The translations under genes and the position numbers were made by a program. Under the pieces are notes generated by a model, which worked only from the letters and a program-made list of their open reading frames with translations, ran no database searches and had not been told where the DNA came from. DNA of 26,287 bases from a virus, in the IMG/VR virus record IMGVR_UViG_3300042346_000212, positions 1 to 26,287 of that record, one strand, 5' to 3'. Positions within the stretch are counted from its first letter, which is position 1, and each line of letters opens with the position of its first letter. Below, piece by piece: positions 1,335-25,486 of the stretch.

Positions 1335-2033
1335 TTAACGGTAACGGAGAATAATTTCTTTACACATCTCTGATCTAACAATATCGTCAATACCAAACTC
1401 GACGATACCAATCTTATCCACATCATAAAGCCGATCAACTGCATCAGCAAGACCAGACAAACCTCGAATGTCGGTCTGCGCAATGTCACCATCAATGATT
1501 ACTTTGCAGTCATCACCAATCCGACTTAAAAATAATTTCATTTGCGATGGCGTAGTATTTTGCGCTTCATCTAAAATACACAGACTGTTCTTAAATGTAC
1601 TACCACGCATGAACTCTAATGGCTTTAATTTGATCTGTCCGCGCTTAACCAATAGGTCAGTATAGGATTTTCCCAAACGCTCCTCCAAAACGCTTAAAAG
1701 CGGCTCCATGTACGGTGCAAACTTTTCACCAAGATCGCCAGGCAAAAAACCAAAACCTTTGCTTGATGCTTCGACGTTTGGTCGCGTCAGTATCACGCTA
1801 TCAATGAGCTTTTCTTCGAGTAACTCGGCTGCGTAAGACGCGGCTATGTACGTCTTTCCCGTTCCTGCCGGACCGACAGCAAAAGTGATAACGTTTGCAC
1901 GAATTGCATTGATGTATTGTTGCTGTGCTTTGTTTAATGCACGCAACTGGGATTTCTTTGGTGTTGTTGTTACTTCTTGTACAAACTTTTGTGCGCGTCG
2001 ATCTTTGCGCTTGAGTTTCTTTTCAAAATCCAT
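1335..2033 (-). CDS. phoH: PhoH-like P-loop ATPase
   Basis: A 232-aa protein covering the PhoH ATPase domain. It has Walker A GPAGTGKT (54-61), the family block TRPNVEASSKGFGFLPGD (83-100), Walker B LCILDEAQN (151-159) and VIIDGDIAQTD (178-188), all characteristic of PhoH/YlaK NTPases. The N-terminus (residues 1-30) is short and basic, and the PIN domain of PhoH2-type proteins is absent. PhoH homologues are common in phages of aquatic bacteria. Their proposed roles (RNA or phosphate-stress related) are not settled. A ribosome site AAGGAT lies 6 nt before the ATG. The gene heads the phoH-terS-terL operon and its 5' side borders the structured gene-free region at 2034-2812. Confidence 0.95.
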   Translation of the reverse strand: MDFEKKLKRKDRRAQKFVQEVTTTPKKSQLRALNKAQQQYINAIRANVITFAVGPAGTGKTYIAASYAAELLEEKLIDSVILTRPNVEASSKGFGFLPGDLGEKFAPYMEPLLSVLEERLGKSYTDLLVKRGQIKLKPLEFMRGSTFKNSLCILDEAQNTTPSQMKLFLSRIGDDCKVIIDGDIAQTDIRGLSGLADAVDRLYDVDKIGIVEFGIDDIVRSEMCKEIILRYR

Positions 2034-2060
2034 GTAAATCCTTATGAAAAAAATATATTA

Positions 2061-2244
2061 CTATCACTAAAAGCACTGTTTACTACCCCATGACAATCAG
2101 TTACATTCTTCCCTATGTCATTAGTAGACTACCGTTACCAGTAGCCGTAACCCGTGTGGATCGCGTAGCTAGTGCGACTTATCCACTTTAAAGGCTGCAA
2201 GGTTGCGAATTGCGGTACGCTACAAGCAATGCTTTTAGTGATAG
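2061..2244. repeat. Long-range inverted repeat A, 14 bp perfect (18 bp with one mismatch)
   Basis: Left arm CTATCACTAAAAGC at 2061-2074 is exactly complementary to GCTTTTAGTGATAG at 2231-2244. Pairing extends to 2061-2078 with 2227-2244 with a single imperfect position, which is C-A in plus-strand RNA but G-U in minus-strand RNA. The 148-nt interior carries smaller hairpins: TACTA..TGACA with TGTCA..TAGTA (about 2081-2128), GTTAC/GTAAC (about 2134-2150) and GTGGAT/ATCCAC (2156-2186). Confidence 0.85.
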
Positions 2245-2250
2245 CTAGGC

Positions 2251-2289
2251 ATCGCGCTGGGTAATTGACTGCTCTCCGCCCAGCGCGAT
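2251..2289. repeat. GC-rich hairpin B, 11-bp perfect stem
   Basis: ATCGCGCTGGG at 2251-2261 pairs perfectly with CCCAGCGCGAT at 2279-2289 around a 17-nt loop. This is strikingly GC-rich for this AT-rich genome. No T-tract follows on either strand, so it does not look like an ordinary terminator. Confidence 0.85.
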
Positions 2290-2327
2290 TGAAATGAAAA
2301 CTAAAACATGAACACGATAGCCATCAC

Positions 2328-2371
2328 GCTATCACTAAAAACACTAACACCTAAATGCGTTTAGTGATAGC
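2328..2371. repeat. Hairpin C, 12-bp perfect stem reusing the repeat A arm
   Basis: GCTATCACTAAA at 2328-2339 pairs with TTTAGTGATAGC at 2360-2371 around a 20-nt loop. The arm is the same sequence as in inverted repeat A, so the four copies could also pair in the alternative combinations. Confidence 0.85.
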
Positions 2372-2493
2372 AAAAACCACCACGTCATAAACTGCAATGA
2401 GTAATGGCCGTGTTTTTGATTGATAGTAATCTCAGTATTCGTTGGCGTACTTTCAGCCAATCCCAAGTCTCCTATTTCCGAGCGTCTGGCCAT
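2344..2493 (-). CDS. Possible 49-aa ORF inside the structured region
   Basis: An ATG-initiated frame beginning MARRSEIGDLGLAEST and ending WWFLLSLNAFRC. The first half is polar and the second half hydrophobic. There is no clear ribosome site. The start codon lies within the arm of inverted repeat D and the frame runs through hairpin C. I do not recognise it. It may be chance coding in a structured RNA, and I list it only because nothing else annotates the stretch. Confidence 0.15.
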   Translation of the reverse strand: MARRSEIGDLGLAESTPTNTEITINQKHGHYSLQFMTWWFLLSLNAFRC

Positions 2494-2496
2494 TAC
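2401..2496. repeat. Inverted repeat D, 9 bp, with nested hairpin
   Basis: GTAATGGCC at 2401-2409 pairs with GGCCATTAC at 2488-2496. Inside it TTGGC (2442-2446) pairs with GCCAA (2456-2460). TTGATTGATAGTA at 2416-2428 resembles the complement of the left arm of repeat E, so D and E could compete for pairing. Confidence 0.7.
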
Positions 2497-2513
2497 AGGT
2501 GCGCTGTGCGCGT

Positions 2514-2691
2514 ACTATCAATAATCAACTCTCTTACTTATACATTTCGATACGTTGTACACCGTACTCTACTTGCGTCTTGAGCCAACCCGATTAGTCG
2601 ATTCCAACATCGCCAATCCTTTATTCTGGTTCACGTTTGGATTCTTGCCAGCCAAGGTTGTCAATTCTTCGTAAAGTTGATTATTGATAGT
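2514..2691. repeat. Long-range inverted repeat E, 17 bp perfect
   Basis: ACTATCAATAATCAACT at 2514-2530 is exactly complementary to AGTTGATTATTGATAGT at 2675-2691, enclosing 144 nt. The right arm can alternatively pair through TTGATAGT (2684-2691) with ACTATCAA (2736-2743), so a switch between two structures is possible. Confidence 0.85.
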
Positions 2692-2747
2692 GCTTACACA
2701 TATCACGTTGCAATAACGCTGTAAGCTGGAACTTAACTATCAAAACC

Positions 2748-2806
2748 AAGCACACCACAGTCATTGATAAATCGCCAAGGTTAAGGAAATTTACTGTGAT
2801 GTGCTT
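2748..2806 (-). repeat. Hairpin F, 14-bp stem just downstream of the 60-aa gene
   Basis: AAGCACACCACAGT at 2748-2761 pairs with ACTGTGATGTGCTT at 2793-2806 at 13 of 14 positions. The odd position is a G-U pair in minus-strand RNA. The minus-strand continuation is GGTTTTGATAG, so it could act as a weak terminator for the 60-aa gene, but the U-tract is only four bases. Confidence 0.65.
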
Positions 2807-2812
2807 GTATAT

Positions 2813-2995
2813 TTAATCTTCGTTGTCTAAATATTTTTCTGAAATTCTTTCGATCATCATACTATCTGCAATGTAATACGCAAGTCCAGAAATGCTTTCA
2901 AACGCCACATTAGATCTTCCAGATAAAATTCCTTGCATTGCATGTGCCGCAAAATAATCACGACGTTCAATATCTTCATTCATATTTTTACCCAT
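2813..2995 (-). CDS. Small conserved-type phage protein (60 aa)
   Basis: Sixty residues, acidic, without Cys or membrane segment. The stretch ERRDYFAAHAMQGILSG (about 10-26), followed by a segment ending in ADSMMIERISEKYL, has the look of a small protein common in phages and prophages, with a DYFAA-x-AMQ block and a helix ending in MM-x-ER. The function is unknown. Two starts are possible: the ATG at 2995, directly after eight Ts with no good ribosome site, or the ATG at 2983, which has only a weak GGGT upstream. It stands alone between the structured leader at 2996-3108 and the structured region at 2034-2812, and a TATAAT box lies about 110 bp upstream. Confidence 0.75.
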   Translation of the reverse strand: MGKNMNEDIERRDYFAAHAMQGILSGRSNVAFESISGLAYYIADSMMIERISEKYLDNED

Positions 2996-3108
2996 AAAAA
3001 AAACCGTCTTCTTTGTTAGGTGATAATTGCCGTGAAAAGTTGCGGCTCTAACTTGAATTCGGTTTTGTTTAACTTTTCACTAAATTAGGTTTATCACAAC
3101 CTGTACAC
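2996..3108 (-). promoter_or_regulatory. Structured 5' leader of the 60-aa gene
   Basis: Perfect 10-bp inverted repeat GTGAAAAGTT (3032-3041) with AACTTTTCAC (3071-3080), flanked by an outer pair GTGATAA (3020-3026) with TTATCAC (3091-3097). On the minus strand GCCG and CGGC around CAACTTTTCA form a competing hairpin, and AAAACCG can pair with CGGTTTT next to the eight Ts that touch the start codon. Mutually exclusive hairpins before a start codon resemble a regulatory leader. No known riboswitch class was recognised. Confidence 0.4.
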
Positions 3109-3114
3109 ATTATA
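3109..3114 (-). promoter_or_regulatory. Candidate -10 box (TATAAT on minus strand) for the 60-aa gene
   Basis: On the minus strand the sequence reads TGATGTATAATGTG, a perfect TATAAT. The -35 side is only a run of A/T with no TTGACA match. It would place the transcript start near 3102 and give a leader of about 107 nt. Confidence 0.4.
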
Positions 3115-3161
3115 CATCATTTAAAAAAAATTATTACGCTTAAAAGTTCGCACAACATAAA

Positions 3162-18204: not shown

Positions 18205-19541
18205 TATTGCGCTCTCCAGTTTTTCTCATCAGCAGGATCACCGCCTAAAAATACATGATTGTCTTCAACATCACCAGGTTTTGGTATTTTAATTTTACTT
18301 TTTTCTGGTTGTTTTGCATAATCAATTTTTGGTATTAAACGATCTGGATGTTTTTCAATAACTGGTGCATGTTCACGCTGATATTGACTAGATAATTTAT
18401 TGTTATACATTACCATTCTATCAGCAAGTTTACGCAACTCATTCTTTGTGCCTTTTTCACCAAGTTTTCTTGGATCAATAGCTGCAAATTGTTTTTCAAG
18501 CATTGGCCATTCTCTTTCTGTTAATGAGCCAATAGATCCAGTAGCTGACGCATTTGCTTTTGCAATCTCACCTATTTTACCTTTTATTCCTTCATACAAA
18601 TTAAGCGCACTTGCCGTTTCAGATTCTGGTGCAGTTGGTAATAACGCATTGTATCCAGTCATTCCAGACAAGCCTTTATGTTTTGACAATGCCTCAACAT
18701 CCGCTTTTAATGCATTATTTTTGATAATAGAATCTTCAACAAACTGCATATCTTTTGTAGCGTCTTTAATTTGTTTTTGTTCTGCCGCTGCATTAGCCGC
18801 TGGTCCCATTCCTAATGCTTGTGATTTCGTCACATATTCTACAACACCAGTTTCTGGATTTGTTACCGCTATTGGTGTTTCTTGTTGCTCTGGATGATAA
18901 GGAGTTTGTCCTATTGCGCTTGCACCTTCAACATATTGTGGTCCATTTGGCCCCATCACTTCTTTTAATGATGGTTGTGGTGGATTGCGTGTGCTTGTTA
19001 AATATTCACGCATTCTTGCCGCTTTTTCTGGCGATGCACCTGCTATTGCATCTGCAAATAATTCAGCTTGAGATTTTTTTGGAGCAACATTATAACGCGC
19101 AAGCATCGACCCTAAACTTTTCTCGTCTGCGCCATACAGCTCTGCGATGGCTTGACGTGATGACAACTGCTTTGCAATGTTCTCATTGTGTTGCTTACGC
19201 TCTGACGCACGACTTTCTGCCATCGCATTAGCAACATTCATTAATGGCTCACCAAAACCTCTTGTTGTTGATGGTGCGGCAAGAGCCGCTGCCAGCTTGA
19301 AGTACATCTCTGACTTGTCTTCAGGATGCTGATTGATTAAGTTTTTCTCAAGTGCATCACGAAGTAATGCACGTTGCGCCTCAGCAGTTTTGCGTGCTTC
19401 ACTATATTGAGCGAACAATTGTTTTTGCATGTCTGGATTAAGTGAATAATTTGATGCCAAATCTTGAATCGTCGGCTGTTTATCCTCCATGTCGATGTCG
19501 TTGACACCATAGTTTTCTGCTAAATCTTCAATATTTGCCAT
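18204..19541 (-). CDS. Probable virion protein with N-terminal DLAxxY repeats (445 aa)
   Basis: The N-terminus contains IEDLAENYGV (4-13) and IQDLASNYSL (25-34), a short motif that recurs several times in the adjacent giant protein. The middle is an alpha-helical region with LLRDALEKNLINQHPEDK and many Ala, Lys and Glu. The C-terminal half includes GSIGSLTEREWPMLEKQFAA, a block seen in phage structural proteins. It has no Cys and no enzyme motif. Starts 1 nt inside the giant gene's stop (TAATG) and ends likewise on the 532-aa gene. The shared motif suggests that it binds the same partner as the giant, or the giant itself. Confidence 0.6.
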   Translation of the reverse strand: MANIEDLAENYGVNDIDMEDKQPTIQDLASNYSLNPDMQKQLFAQYSEARKTAEAQRALLRDALEKNLINQHPEDKSEMYFKLAAALAAPSTTRGFGEPLMNVANAMAESRASERKQHNENIAKQLSSRQAIAELYGADEKSLGSMLARYNVAPKKSQAELFADAIAGASPEKAARMREYLTSTRNPPQPSLKEVMGPNGPQYVEGASAIGQTPYHPEQQETPIAVTNPETGVVEYVTKSQALGMGPAANAAAEQKQIKDATKDMQFVEDSIIKNNALKADVEALSKHKGLSGMTGYNALLPTAPESETASALNLYEGIKGKIGEIAKANASATGSIGSLTEREWPMLEKQFAAIDPRKLGEKGTKNELRKLADRMVMYNNKLSSQYQREHAPVIEKHPDRLIPKIDYAKQPEKSKIKIPKPGDVEDNHVFLGGDPADEKNWRAQ

Positions 19542-22500
19542 TACACTGCTCCACCGTATTTTTTATATAATCTGTCAATTTCTTTGCTCACCGCGCCACC
19601 TTTTGCTAAATCACTCATCATTGGCTGATTGCTAGAATCTCCCCATGAGCCAAAATCAAACATACCGCCTAAGTCATCATACCATGATGATCCACCACCT
19701 GCATCTGAACCAAAATCAAACATTCCACCTAAACTTCCCCATAAAGACGAATCACTTGATGAATCGTAGGTGCCATCAGGATATTGTCCGGGTTGCAGTG
19801 GGTATCCATTAGAATCGTATCCTGGAACATTGTATTGACCAAGAGTATTGTTTTTAACAAGCGCACCAGATGCATCGTAGTGAACATTAGCTGGTAGTGG
19901 ATTATAAGTATCAAATGCAGATGATACGCTACCGTATAAATTATCTAAACCTTTTGAAATACTATCAAATATACTTGCGTCGCTTACACCACCTTCACTA
20001 CTTGGCGGAACATATGGATACGCAATTGATCCTTCAAAATTATCTGGTAACTGTTCATCACCACCACCACTTAAAAAGTCACCAATTGAACCAACGGTAC
20101 CTTCAATAGATCCGATTAAATCATTATAAGTATCGGCAACATGTGATCCTATTGTATCAAAGAAATTGGTTGGAAGACTGTCACGATTAAGCGTAATGGT
20201 TTCACCTGTTGGATTACCTTGAGAGTCAATTGGGGTAGCTGTAATAGGTCCTTGATCATTTAAATTAACTGCAATTGAGCGTCCGTTAATTCCTAAATCT
20301 TGATTCCAGATATTGCTAACTTTAATTGAGTCATACGGGCCTAAACCACCGGTAAATGATGATGCACCAAGCACGCCAAGTGTTTGCATTAATTTAGCTG
20401 TTATTGGATTTGCTGCTGCCCAGTGATTGTAATCGTTATATTCTTGCGCCACAGCATCATCGTAGTTTGTACCATTCAACAAAGATTTAATTTCAGCGAT
20501 TAATGGAATACCAAGTTTTAATGGAACGACACCCTCTGCTAATGCATCAATACTTGCATTGGTTGTTGGGAATAGCTCTGAACCAATCATTTTGCCTTCT
20601 TGTAATGATCCATTCATTTCAGCTTGTTTAGCTGCTTGATTAAATTGATTTGTTGCCGCTACATTATCTTTTGCAAATTGAACAGCTTTTGCCAATGCTG
20701 TATCACCAAGATTATTATCTTTAGCATATTTTTGAATTGCATCAGGATTGTTTATGTTATTTGTAATAACATTAGCAAATTTTTCAGTAACCGCATCAGT
20801 TGTTGGAACTTGAATTACTGCAACTGCATTAGATCCACCAGCGTTAGGATCTTTAGGCGCACTTACCTCAAGTATATGACCAGAGTTAAGTGAATTGGTT
20901 AAATCTATATCAGATTTTTGCGTTGTATCACTGTTTACCCAGTTTTTCATAAAATCTGGTAAATCTTTTGTGAAATCAACTGTTTTATATAAATCCTCGT
21001 GTACAAGTTTATCAAGCCAATCACCAATAGGCGTAACCTCTTGACCATGAGCTAAATCCCAAATACTTTCAATTGGATAACCAATACCTGGAACTAAGAA
21101 TTTTGCAGTAGTTGCAATTGCTTCTAATAATCCAATAGAATTTACATCTTTTGGTTTTGGCAGTGTAATAAATTCAACTGCCATTACTTTTGCTTTTTCT
21201 GGCGTAATAGGATTTGGTGTATCTTTTGTTATTTCAACAATTTTTTTAGACAAATCAGCCGCCTGTGTTATTTGTTTTACTGCATCAACTGTTTGCGGTT
21301 GTGTTGTTGGTTGCGTAATTGGTGTGGTGCTTGTTAATCCACCCGATTCATTTGGTACAACGGTGCTTGATGTTGTGCTACCTGTCGTTCCTGTCGCTCC
21401 CGTAGATCCTGTAGATCCTGTAGATCCAGAAGTATTAGCTAATCCATTAATAGCATCAGATGCGGCTTTAGATGCATCAGATAATCTTTTTGCCTCATCC
21501 GATTCGGCTTTGGCTGTATTGATAATATTGCCAATTTTTATACGCATTGCATTAGCTAATTCTGGGATATGATAAAACTCACGTTGTGTATCAACAGGAT
21601 GTTTTGCCATATAATCGTTAAATTCTGCATCGCGCTCTGGTGAATTCCATTTTAATGCGCCTTTAATCGCGTTCTCACTAACATTATAGTGTTTGGCTAA
21701 TTCACTAATAGTTGGGATTTTATTTGCAGGTAAATCTGTTGTTTTAAAAACATCCATCAAAGGATAAAGATTATTTAATGCATTTTGTGATTTTTCATTA
21801 AACAAAAGGTTTGGATCTTTTGCCGCCATATAATCTGTAGCATCTTCAGGACTCCATCCTTTTTCTGCCATTAATTTCGCTACTTTTACAACATTAAGAG
21901 GGATGTCATACTTAGCGGCAATATTTTCAATTGTTGGATTTGCTTTAGCTGCCTCATCTAATGCCTTTTGTTTTTCAATAGCAGCCGCTTGTGCTTTTTC
22001 TAATTTTGCCTTTTCTGCTTCTGCTTTAGCGGCTGCTGCCTGTGCTTTAGCGGCATCAGCTTTAGCCTTTGCCTCTGCTGCTGCTTGTTTTTTTGCTTCT
22101 GCATCAGCCGCTGCTTTTTCTTTAGCGGCTTGCGCGGCTGCCGCTTTAGCGTCTGATGCAGCTTTATCTGCTATAGCTTTTGCTTCCGCTTTTGCTTTAG
22201 CATCCGCTGCTGCCTTTGCTTTAGCCTCTGCTTTAGCATCCGATGCGGCTTTATCTGCCGCTACTTTTGCCGCTGCTGCTGACTTAGCAGCTTCCGCCTT
22301 TGCCTCTGCTGCGGCTTTGTCTGCTGCCGCTTTAGCCGCTTTGTCAGTTTCTGCTTTAGCTTTAGCTTCAGCTAATTGTTGAGCTTTAGCATCAGCCGCT
22401 GCTTTAGCATCAGCCGCAATTTTTGCTGCCGCTGTTTCTTTTGCATCTTGTGCTGCTTGATCCGCTTTAGCTTTAGCATCAGCAGCGGCTTTAGTGGCTG

Positions 22501-25486
22501 CCGCTTCAGCTTCTGCTTTATTTTTGGCATCAGCTTGCGCTTTTTCATTTTCTGCGGTTAATTTATCTGCTTGTACTTTAGCAGCGGCATCATCTTGTGT
22601 TTGTTTAGCATCAATAGCCTTTTGCTGTTCTGGAGTATATGGGCCTTGTTGTTGTGTTACATCCCATTGATTGTTATTTTCAAGCGCAGTTAATACAATG
22701 TCTGTTGAGGATGGTTGCGCTCCTTCAATAACAGGCCCCATGATGTCATTAGCATTTTTAGATTTTTGTTCATCTAATGCCTTTTGCTGTTCTTGTGTGT
22801 ACGGACCTTGTTGTTCCACTGTTGCTTGATTAGGATTTTTCTCAACTGTTAAATTATCTGATGAAATCTGATTGATATTGTATTTGTTCGCCAGATCAGC
22901 AGTTGTTTGTTTTGCCGCTTCTAAAGATTTAGCTAAATCTTCAGCTTGTTGTTTAGCAAGTGCTTCAGCTTGTACTTTAGCAACTGCATCTGCATCAGAT
23001 TTAATTTTCGCGTCTGCTACTGCTTTATCCGCTGCCGCTTTTTCATCAGCTTTAGCTTTCGCGTCAGCATCAGCTTTAGCTTTAGCTGCATCTTTTGCGG
23101 CTTGTGCTTCTGCCGCTTTAGTATCTGCAATTGCTTTTGCTTCAGCCGCTTTAGCATCAGCCGCTGCTTTAGCATCAGCCGCAATTTTTGCTTTCTCTGC
23201 CGCTTTTGCATCTGCCATTGCTTTGTCAGCAGCTAATTTCGCGTCAGCCGCTGATTTATCTGCCGTAGCTTTAGCATCCGCTGCTTCTTTTGCGGCTTGC
23301 GCTTTAGCGACTTTATCTGCGGTAGCTTTAGCTTTAGCTTCTGCATTTGCTTGTGCCTTAGCATCAGCCGTTGCTTTTGTTTCAGCGGCTTTTTGTGCTG
23401 CCGCTGTTGCCGCTGCATCTTTAGCGGCTTGAATTGCTGCCGTCTTAGCATCTGCTGCCGCTTTAGCTGTTGCTGCTTTAGCATCTTCTGCGACTTTCGC
23501 GTCAGCAACCGCTTTTTCATGTGCGGCTGTTTTAGCATCAGAATCAGCTTTTAATTTAGCCTGTGCTTCAGCTTGTGCTTTTGCTATCGCATCAGATTGA
23601 GCTTTAGCTTGTGCATCAGTTTTAGCCTGTGCGTCTGCTTTTGCCTGTGCATCAGCCTGTGCTTTAGCATCAATAACTTTTTGTTGCTCAGGCGTGTATG
23701 GTCCCATTTGTACGCTATTAGATGGATTAATATTGTACGCAGATGCTAAATTATCTAATGTTACCGTTTGTGGTGCTTGACTAGGATTATTACTAACAGG
23801 TCCTACATTATATTTACTGGCTAAATCACTAGTAGTTTGATTTTTTGATTCGGCATCAGCGTTTGCTTTAGCCAGTTCGTTTGCTTTTAGTTGTTGTTCC
23901 CATTTGGCTGTTTCTTCCCGTGCCTTATTTGTGTTTTTTTCCCATTCTTCAGCTTGCGCTTTAGCATCAGCTTGATCTTGTGCCTCTTTTTCGGCTTTAG
24001 CAACTGCGTCTGCTTGTGATTTAACATTGGCAATCTCTTGATTTGCATCATCAATAACTTTCTGTTGTGATGGCGAATATGGTCCTGTTGCTGGTGAAGT
24101 AGATGGATTTCCAGACACTAAATCATTTAATGTTACTGTTTGCGGTGCTTGATTAGGATTATTACTGACAGGTCCCATAACGTCATTTGGTACTTTAGGC
24201 ACAACAGGTGAAATAACATCCGTTACCGTAGCACCAGGATCAAGCGTTGGCTTACCAGTATTATCCACCGTTGTTAGTGTAATTCCAGATCCATCAATTG
24301 GTGTTTTAGGTACAACAGGTGTTTCTACTGTCGTACCATTAGCATCACTTGTATCAAATGGATTTAAAGGTTTTGTATTAGGATCAACAGGTAAATTAGT
24401 GTAAGGATTTCCAAAGTCATCAGTAGGAACGGTAGGTACAGTTGTATCTACGCCAGTACCACCTGTTACAGTAGATGTGTCATTTCCACTTCCACCTGTT
24501 ATCGTACTTGTACCAGTACCTGTACCACCTGTTACCGTATCATTACCAGTGCCACCAGTGACTGTTTCGATTCCAGATGTTCCTGTACCAGTGCTACCTG
24601 TTATTGTATCGTTACCAGTTCCACCTGTTATGGTACCTATAGCGGTCCCTGTACCACCAGTTATGGTGTCGTTACCATATCCTCCCGTAACAGTACCGGT
24701 ACTTGTACCTGTACCACCAGTTATGGTGTCATTTCCAGTTCCTCCAGTTACCGTATCATTTCCACTTGCACCTGTAATAGTGCCAGTTCCAGTACCAGTT
24801 GGTGTTCCTGTAGGTGTTCCTGTAGGTGTATTGTCTGGTGTACCAGTTGGAGTTCCAGTACCAGTTCCTGTACCACCAGTTATGGTGTCATTTCCTGTAC
24901 CACCAGTTATGGTGTCTACAGGTATTACAATCGGAGGAATGACTGTTGTATCAGAAATTGCACCGCCCGTTACGGTATCTTTAACAACAGGTTTTGTTTC
25001 TGGTGCTTTATAATTCTGATAATTAGGATTACCTAAAACATCACCCCACCACGAACCAGTTGCATTAACTAAGTCATAACGGTTCTGATTGTACTTATCC
25101 ATTAACGCTACTAATTCTGGTTGCGTTGTTGTTGGATTATTTTTTAATGTTTCATTTACATTTTTAGTGTAATTTTCGTAAGCAGGTGTACCAAACTGTG
25201 GAATAACACTATTGCCAAGTTGTTTTTTGTATAAATCAGATTGAGTAGCAGGCGATTGAAATTGTGGCGCAGAATACATGTTTGTATTTTGCAAACGATT
25301 ATTGTATTCCTTTAAGTATTCTTGATACTTGGTTTGATCCGCGTCATACGCAGCTTGTTGCGCAGCTTGTTGCGTTGCATTATCAATCGTTATTGGTCCA
25401 GTTGGCATAGGCGTGCCGCCATATGTATTGGTCGGATTGCTTAAGCCATATTGTTTCAATAACTCATCTAATTCATAACCGTACAT
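19541..25486 (-). CDS. Giant low-complexity virion-type protein with RTX-like repeats and TolA-like coiled coil (1981 aa)
   Basis: Domains in order: N-terminus with [10 protein letters not shown] (6-15); RTX-like Gly/Asp repeats (about 190-350); Pro/Thr linker; four GPY-x-xEQQK-type cassettes interleaved with Ala/Lys/Glu-rich TolA-like coiled coil (about 475-1180); HTH-like segments [10 protein letters not shown] and [10 protein letters not shown] (about 1184 and 1258); collagen-like [13 protein letters not shown] (about 1355); a Gly/Asp-rich C-terminal region with LGGMFDFGS twice; end [12 protein letters not shown]. There is no catalytic motif. Length and composition suggest a fibrous virion or ejection protein that spans the envelope. 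The ribosome site AAGGAT precedes the start, 12 nt after the upstream stop. Alternative: a tape-measure-like protein. Function is inferred only. Confidence 0.7.
21945..24050 (-). repeat. Ala/Lys/Gln-rich TolA-like coiled-coil repeats with GPYTPEQQK cassettes
   Basis: Degenerate AKADAQAKA-type heptad-like repeats, similar in composition to bacterial TolA, broken by four cassettes: [27 protein letters not shown] and GPYTPEQQK (approximately at 24070, 23690, 22795 and 22625), each near a DLA-xx-Y or related motif. The repeats invite recombination-driven length change. Confidence 0.8.
24430..24915 (-). repeat. RTX-like nonapeptide repeats in the giant protein
   Basis: Reads on the minus strand as [27 protein letters not shown] and similar, about eight D-containing units that fit the GGxGxDxux calcium-binding RTX consensus, alternating with D-less units such as GGTGTGTGT. 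Typical RTX beta-rolls need several consecutive units, so whether this folds as one is open. Confidence 0.7.

Follow-up and report, generated by a model that had tools for sequence, protein, structure and literature searches.

A probable co-transcribed array of structured, exchangeable RNAs, several with tRNA-like frames, in an intergenic gap of a freshwater phage

Intergenic gaps in phage genomes are usually passed over. The window, by which we mean the whole stretch of 26,287 nucleotides analysed here (IMG/VR record IMGVR_UViG_3300042346_000212), is from a partial record, a 26-kb fragment of a freshwater phage, and contains a gap of 779 bp (positions 2034-2812) between a 60-aa open reading frame (ORF) and phoH in a minus-strand operon. 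A sequence-only reading had described the gap as a set of inverted repeats sharing one core and had suggested a large structured RNA, a replication origin or a packaging site. In this study, the gap was compared with shuffled sequences, related phage contigs (referred to by L numbers), Rfam models and prokaryotic and phage genomes. On balance, these comparisons favour reading the gap as a co-transcribed array of structured RNAs that are exchanged between phages, have tRNA-like frames in several cases and may act in trans.

Repeat content and modules of the gap

The gap is free of genes on the transcribed strand, as had been claimed; plus-strand ORFs of 59 and 51 aa in it are unsupported. All of the repeats named by the sequence-only reading are present, and its count of eight CTATCA/TGATAG cores is exact. 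These cores start on the plus strand at 2061, 2239, 2329, 2365, 2421, 2515, 2685 and 2737, against a mean of 0.40 in dinucleotide shuffles, none of which reached eight in 2,000. Inverted 11-mers with arms within 200 nt number 18 (shuffle mean 0.03), and the whole gap folds with z = -8.2 on the plus strand and -6.1 on the minus strand relative to shuffles. The inverted arms are listed in Table 1. The 9-bp pair GTAATGGCC/GGCCATTAC was rejected as a real repeat; it is not kept in relatives and is probably due to chance, because its second copy is there part of a terminator-like hairpin, GGCCACCAC.

Read along the minus strand, the gap comprises module E, a linker, module D, module C, a terminator-like hairpin, module B, a GC-rich hairpin and module A, followed by phoH (Table 1). 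Modules of the X type (D, B and A) run from CTATCA to TGATAG and those of the Y type (C) from TGATAG to CTATCA, giving the alternation CTATCA-X-TGATAG-Y-CTATCA. The first core of C is common to D, which leaves the closing stems of the two types in competition for one hexamer, and in most relatives the second core of the C-type module is also common to the next X module. The alternative pairings anticipated from the relatedness of the arms are therefore available, since TGATAG can close the module before it as well as the one after it. The folding energy of C by itself is no better than that of shuffles (z -0.7). Module D also occurs in L006, L015, L035, L124 and others, and the GC-rich hairpin in L002, L003, L005 and L013 with stem changes. 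Within the window, A, B and D are not tRNA-like, C has no T-like arm, and neither ARAGORN nor Rfam finds a tRNA among the modules.

Table 1. Features of the gap and its flanking genes, with the inverted arms found in it
Feature	Position	Strand	Properties
phoH	1335..2033	-	Pfam PF02562, E 4.5e-68; downstream of gap, same direction
Module A, X type	2061..2244	-	184 nt, multi-branched, 18-bp closing stem; z -4.5
GC-rich hairpin ATCGCGCTGGG/CCCAGCGCGAT	2251..2289	-	between B and A; z -3.7
Module B, X type	2329..2370	-	42-nt hairpin; z -4.4; same family in 24 loci
Terminator-like hairpin and T run	2372..2412	-	z -3.0; recurs after C modules; GGCCACCAC...GTGGTGGTTTTTT in relatives
Module C, Y type	2421..2521	-	TGATAG...CTATCA, 101 nt; short form, without T-like arm
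Conserved core of C	2428..2499	-	three covarying helices; near-invariant AAUAGGARACUUGGGA, UGARAGUAC and CGAAUA
Module D, X type	2515..2690	-	CTATCA...TGATAG, 18-bp closing stem, ~176 nt; z -4.3
Linker	2692..2746	-	one TGATAG core (2737-2742) without own partner; no excess folding, z -0.2
Module E	2747..2807	-	hairpin, near-constant loop TGGCGATTTATCAATG; stem differs among relatives, pairing kept; dG -25.8, z -5.8
60-aa ORF	2813..2995	-	upstream of gap, same direction; no Pfam match
Inverted arms	2061-2081/2224-2244		21 nt, 90%
Inverted arms	2251-2261/2279-2289		perfect 11-mer
Inverted arms	2328-2339/2360-2371		perfect 12-mer
Inverted arms	2401-2409/2488-2496		perfect 9-mer
Inverted arms	2505-2530/2675-2700		26 nt, 85%
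Inverted arms	2747-2761/2793-2807		15 nt, one mismatch

Two further features of the window lie outside the gap. The leader of the operon, lying before the 60-aa ORF (2996-3115, minus strand), is structured, with arms 2995-3011/3055-3071 and 3032-3041/3071-3080 and a T-run, AAGACGGTTTTTTTT; it is kept in relatives with altered stems and looks like an attenuator. A 1981-aa ORF (19541-25486, minus strand) contains a long Gly/Thr-rich repeat and Ala/Lys-rich coiled-coil-like stretches (interval 24477-25013).

Compensating changes and exchange among relatives

The sequence-only reading had looked to covariation in related phages as a sign of RNA, and compensating changes are found there. In an alignment of the conserved core of C (35 sequences, 72 columns), 91.7% of cells are paired, against 29-46% when the partners are slid, and double-sided changes occur in 11 of the 13 pairs of a three-helix structure that was drawn by hand from the aligned sequences, RNAalifold alone recovering two of these helices. 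For module A, an alignment of 13 sequences gives 53 consensus pairs, and double changes are seen in 19 of them. A leader hairpin, TGACAGCTTGGAAAGACAAGCA, is often found 5' of X modules and also occurs with AGCCG/CGGC and GACTCG/CGAGT stems, its pairing being kept through the change. The predicted pairing of C, A, E and the leader hairpin is thus kept despite sequence change. Module D was also considered as a coding sequence and rejected: its frame is open in L124 and L131, but indels shift the frame in other variants, and there is no start. Module D has no phage protein match, and no reading frame is conserved among its variants.

Fifteen IMG/VR contigs have phoH in common with the window, and their gaps combine these modules with further ones, in sets and orders that vary. 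For example, module A is absent from L002 and L007 and lies at another place in L008/L009; B is joined directly to another leader in L005, and in L003/L004 a different X module and a longer C take the place of D and the short C. Relative to the window, 10 of 17 distinct breakpoints fall within 3 nt of a core (12.6% expected; P=9e-6), a count that is confined to distinct positions and hence little inflated by related contigs, with shared ancestry not fully removed. In 80 of 82 clear cases, the flanking open frames have the same sense as the array. By eye, at least 20 different X interiors can be told apart, and diversity is underestimated, since the pattern scans require near-exact cores. The earlier suggestion of a large structured RNA therefore holds for the structured RNA and fails for the single large one, since modules vary singly among relatives. 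One continuous RNA of the GOLLD, ROOL or OLE kind was rejected because modules come and go one at a time and because cmscan of 2034-2812 against Rfam, at the gathering cut-off and at E<=1, gives no match. That the gap is an array of independent structured RNAs is nearly certain.

tRNA-like frames and the spread of core C

In the relatives, a long Y frame is constant, with a closing stem that encloses two hairpins and a body. It consists of TGATAGTTAAT, a hairpin with the loop GGCUGA, a body, a second hairpin with the loop AGAUCAGCA, which contains UCAG[CU], and AACTATCA; 11 unrelated bodies occur inside it. One hairpin stem varies with pairing kept as GCGTA/TACGC, GTGCA/TGCAC, GCGAA/TTCGC and GCATA/TATGC, and the other as GCCGG/CCGGC, GTCGG/CCGAC, GCTGG/CCAGC and GCCAG/CTGGC. 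The two loops show little covariation and stay complementary (GCUGA with UCAGC or UCAGU) while the stems vary, which suggests that they form a kissing interaction where tRNA has its D-loop/T-loop contact.

X modules of several relatives possess a tRNA T-arm and an acceptor stem, the latter prolonged by the CTATCA stem, and the Rfam tRNA model passes its cut-off of 29 in those of L135 and L077 (32.4-35.5 bits). The X modules of L092, L108 and L129 have no decoding 7-nt anticodon loop (the arm is missing or the loop is short, 3-4 nt in L092 and L108), and a single X module, that of L159, is given an amino acid by ARAGORN (tRNA-Leu). Outside the CTATCA frame, L129:3315-3373 is a 59-nt tRNA without an anticodon arm (Rfam tRNA, 46 bits), and the leader hairpin of the array precedes a normal tRNA-Met in L157. 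A second phage group (L121, L123, L126, L151 and L155) has the same leader hairpin and a tRNA-Leu-like frame, TAGTCAGGTGGCGGAATGGTAGACGC...ACAGGTTCGAATCCTGTCCTGACTA, in which unrelated bodies replace the anticodon and variable arms, with more than one copy in most contigs; among GenBank phages these frames have no relatives except a real tRNA arm. It is probable that in the relatives the tRNA-like frame serves as a scaffold for the body, the window itself having only the reduced frame of C.

Two other observations concern the same contigs. The tRNA of L129 without an anticodon arm lies directly 3' of a normal tRNA-Met. A recurrent module, GGGUGUCCUC..ACCC.AAAAAGG..GAG, is found in L089, L020, L048, L092, L125 and L135; its two stems change together between copies, and it is likely to contain an H-type pseudoknot.

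The pattern of core C, searched with a spacer of 5 nt, has matches in at least 100 stretches of IMG/VR and, among 84,980 prokaryote species genomes, in one contig only, in a Methylomonas-labelled MAG. Among GenBank phages it is confined to three jumbo phages, Salmonella phage SA002 and two of Erwinia, where it is intergenic, lies near tRNA genes and has a different closing stem. A covariance search with core C returned nothing past the known loci, and BLAST of the other modules against GenBank phages gave short chance-level matches only. Core C is thus a phage RNA, and it is set in at least four outer frames: the short one of the window, the long Y frame, that of the jumbo phages and that of L076, with a canonical-looking tRNA D-arm and T-arm.

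The MAG contig (L161) has a complete array, made up of a tRNA-like X, core C and module A, and its content resembles that of a phage; it is a possible hint of the host. In the jumbo phages, matches to the Y RNA YrlA below its cut-off of 69 bits (L017:3518-3635, 32.3 bits; L018:3164-3267, minus strand, 41.9 bits) lie among tRNA-like stretches near core C. Salmonella phage SA002 also has a sub-threshold match to the type III hammerhead (L017:275-327, minus strand; 30.5 bits against a cut-off of 48.5).

Competing explanations and comparison with known systems

The intergenic position of the modules, in the sense of transcription, and the terminator-like hairpins 3' of some of them would also suit cis-acting leaders, either attenuators or riboswitch-like, that tune the next downstream gene, here phoH. 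However, the same modules stand elsewhere upstream of quite different genes (GroES-like, HU-like and polymerase-like by direct reading), and close relatives keep phoH and change the module set, which makes regulation in cis improbable. The bounding of all modules by identical short inverted cores, with breakpoints on those cores, could point to elements acting as DNA, such as mobile inverted-repeat elements, attC-like sites or an origin, with RNA folding as a by-product. This is an unlikely account of interiors that covary, G-U pairs included, of modules that lie almost always in the sense of transcription and of the T-arms and tRNA matches; in addition, no recombinase is present among the window proteins scanned from this partial record. 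The replication origin or packaging site proposed earlier is likewise a poor fit to RNA covariation and to modules that stand beside different genes elsewhere.

The tRNA resemblance itself could have another source, in that T-arms, acceptor stems, tRNA-Leu-like and tRNA-Glu-like pieces and, in some contigs, normal tRNAs close by might be expected if the modules were decaying or odd tRNA or tmRNA genes, the remnants of a phage tRNA cluster. Decay predicts drift, whereas bodies such as those of C and A show strong conservation and compensating changes; the number of bodies in one frame and the retention of C across unrelated phages also speak against it, and we consider it very unlikely, a reading already weakened by the covariation. 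A tmRNA was rejected, with no match by ARAGORN or Rfam (best Rfam score 11 bits). Core C has highly conserved single-stranded stretches in a compact helix set, lies directly 3' of X modules and, in jumbo phages, near tRNA genes, and could accordingly be a ribozyme that has escaped recognition, one that matures the array by self-cleavage or processing in the manner of the theta ribozymes beside phage tRNAs (PMC10879173). No Rfam ribozyme matches it, and it also ends arrays in which nothing obvious requires trimming, so that we hold a ribozyme to be unlikely. An HDV-like reading of core C, with CGAA as the joining strand, is likewise kept only as an unlikely alternative; P3-L3-P1 would seem to need more than the 16 nt that precede the hairpin.

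For the array of exchangeable RNAs that we favour, the following mechanism is proposed. The modules would be transcribed along with the surrounding minus-strand operon, and each would fold alone and then be cut out or kept as a stable RNA. The tRNA-like frame would protect the module and borrow tRNA processing or binding factors, the body would be the active part, and exchange would proceed by phage recombination via the short shared arms. Phages counter tRNA-directed defences, and the RNAs may target, in trans, such a defence or the RNA machinery of the host, in which case their fast exchange would reflect an arms race. Action against the host is a tentative suggestion, whose whole basis is the rapid exchange, the phage-only spread and the tRNA resemblance. 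More speculatively, and with some doubt, phages might share horizontally a repertoire of effector RNAs, each replacing the anticodon arm of a constant tRNA-like frame and swapped between phages as a cassette, against tRNA-directed or other RNA-based host defences. If true, this would account for some non-decoding tRNA-like genes in phages, and RNAs that oppose host defence would be an RNA counterpart of exchangeable anti-defence gene islands. The gaps described here contain a modular RNA system in which many RNA families are conserved and as yet unnamed, and in which the pairing of a scaffold with a body recalls engineered tRNA scaffolds. Their small size makes the modules suited to structure probing, expression and pull-down.

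No prior description was found in the open-access literature, and as far as can be checked the system looks previously undescribed. The tmRNAs and bacterial Y RNAs (YrlA) similarly combine a tRNA-like end (acceptor, D and T arms) with a non-decoding body, but neither has a match in the window, and YrlA-like matches are sub-threshold and confined to the jumbo-phage neighbourhood. We know of no case among them of one frame with many bodies. The two-piece tmRNA of a methylophage (PMC9004378) does not match the array modules. GOLLD and ROOL are large structured phage RNAs that are often near tRNA islands, with tRNAs sometimes inside GOLLD (PMC12286853); the core C of array relatives shares this location, whereas the array consists of many small independent modules of ~40-190 nt. 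The HDV-like theta ribozymes of gut phages are also small structured RNAs beside phage tRNA genes (PMC10879173), but their conserved core differs and the array has no match to known ribozyme families, HDV-like and hammerhead included, in Rfam.

The closest likenesses are to two kinds of tandem arrangement. Phage tRNA arrays are tandem small RNA genes in phage operons, some array modules score as tRNA, and the leader hairpin before tRNA-Met is common to both; in contrast, array modules have no usable anticodon loop, extended acceptor stems and unrelated bodies in a constant frame, and A, B and D of the window lack tRNA character altogether. Integron gene-cassette arrays are likewise made up of units that can be exchanged and that have a short inverted core in common at their borders, although the units here are RNAs rather than genes, the attC consensus is absent by eye and no integrase is present among the nine proteins scanned from this 26-kb fragment; exchange here is probably the work of general phage recombination. 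In the way it works, the array resembles a cross between a cassette array and a cluster of tRNA genes.
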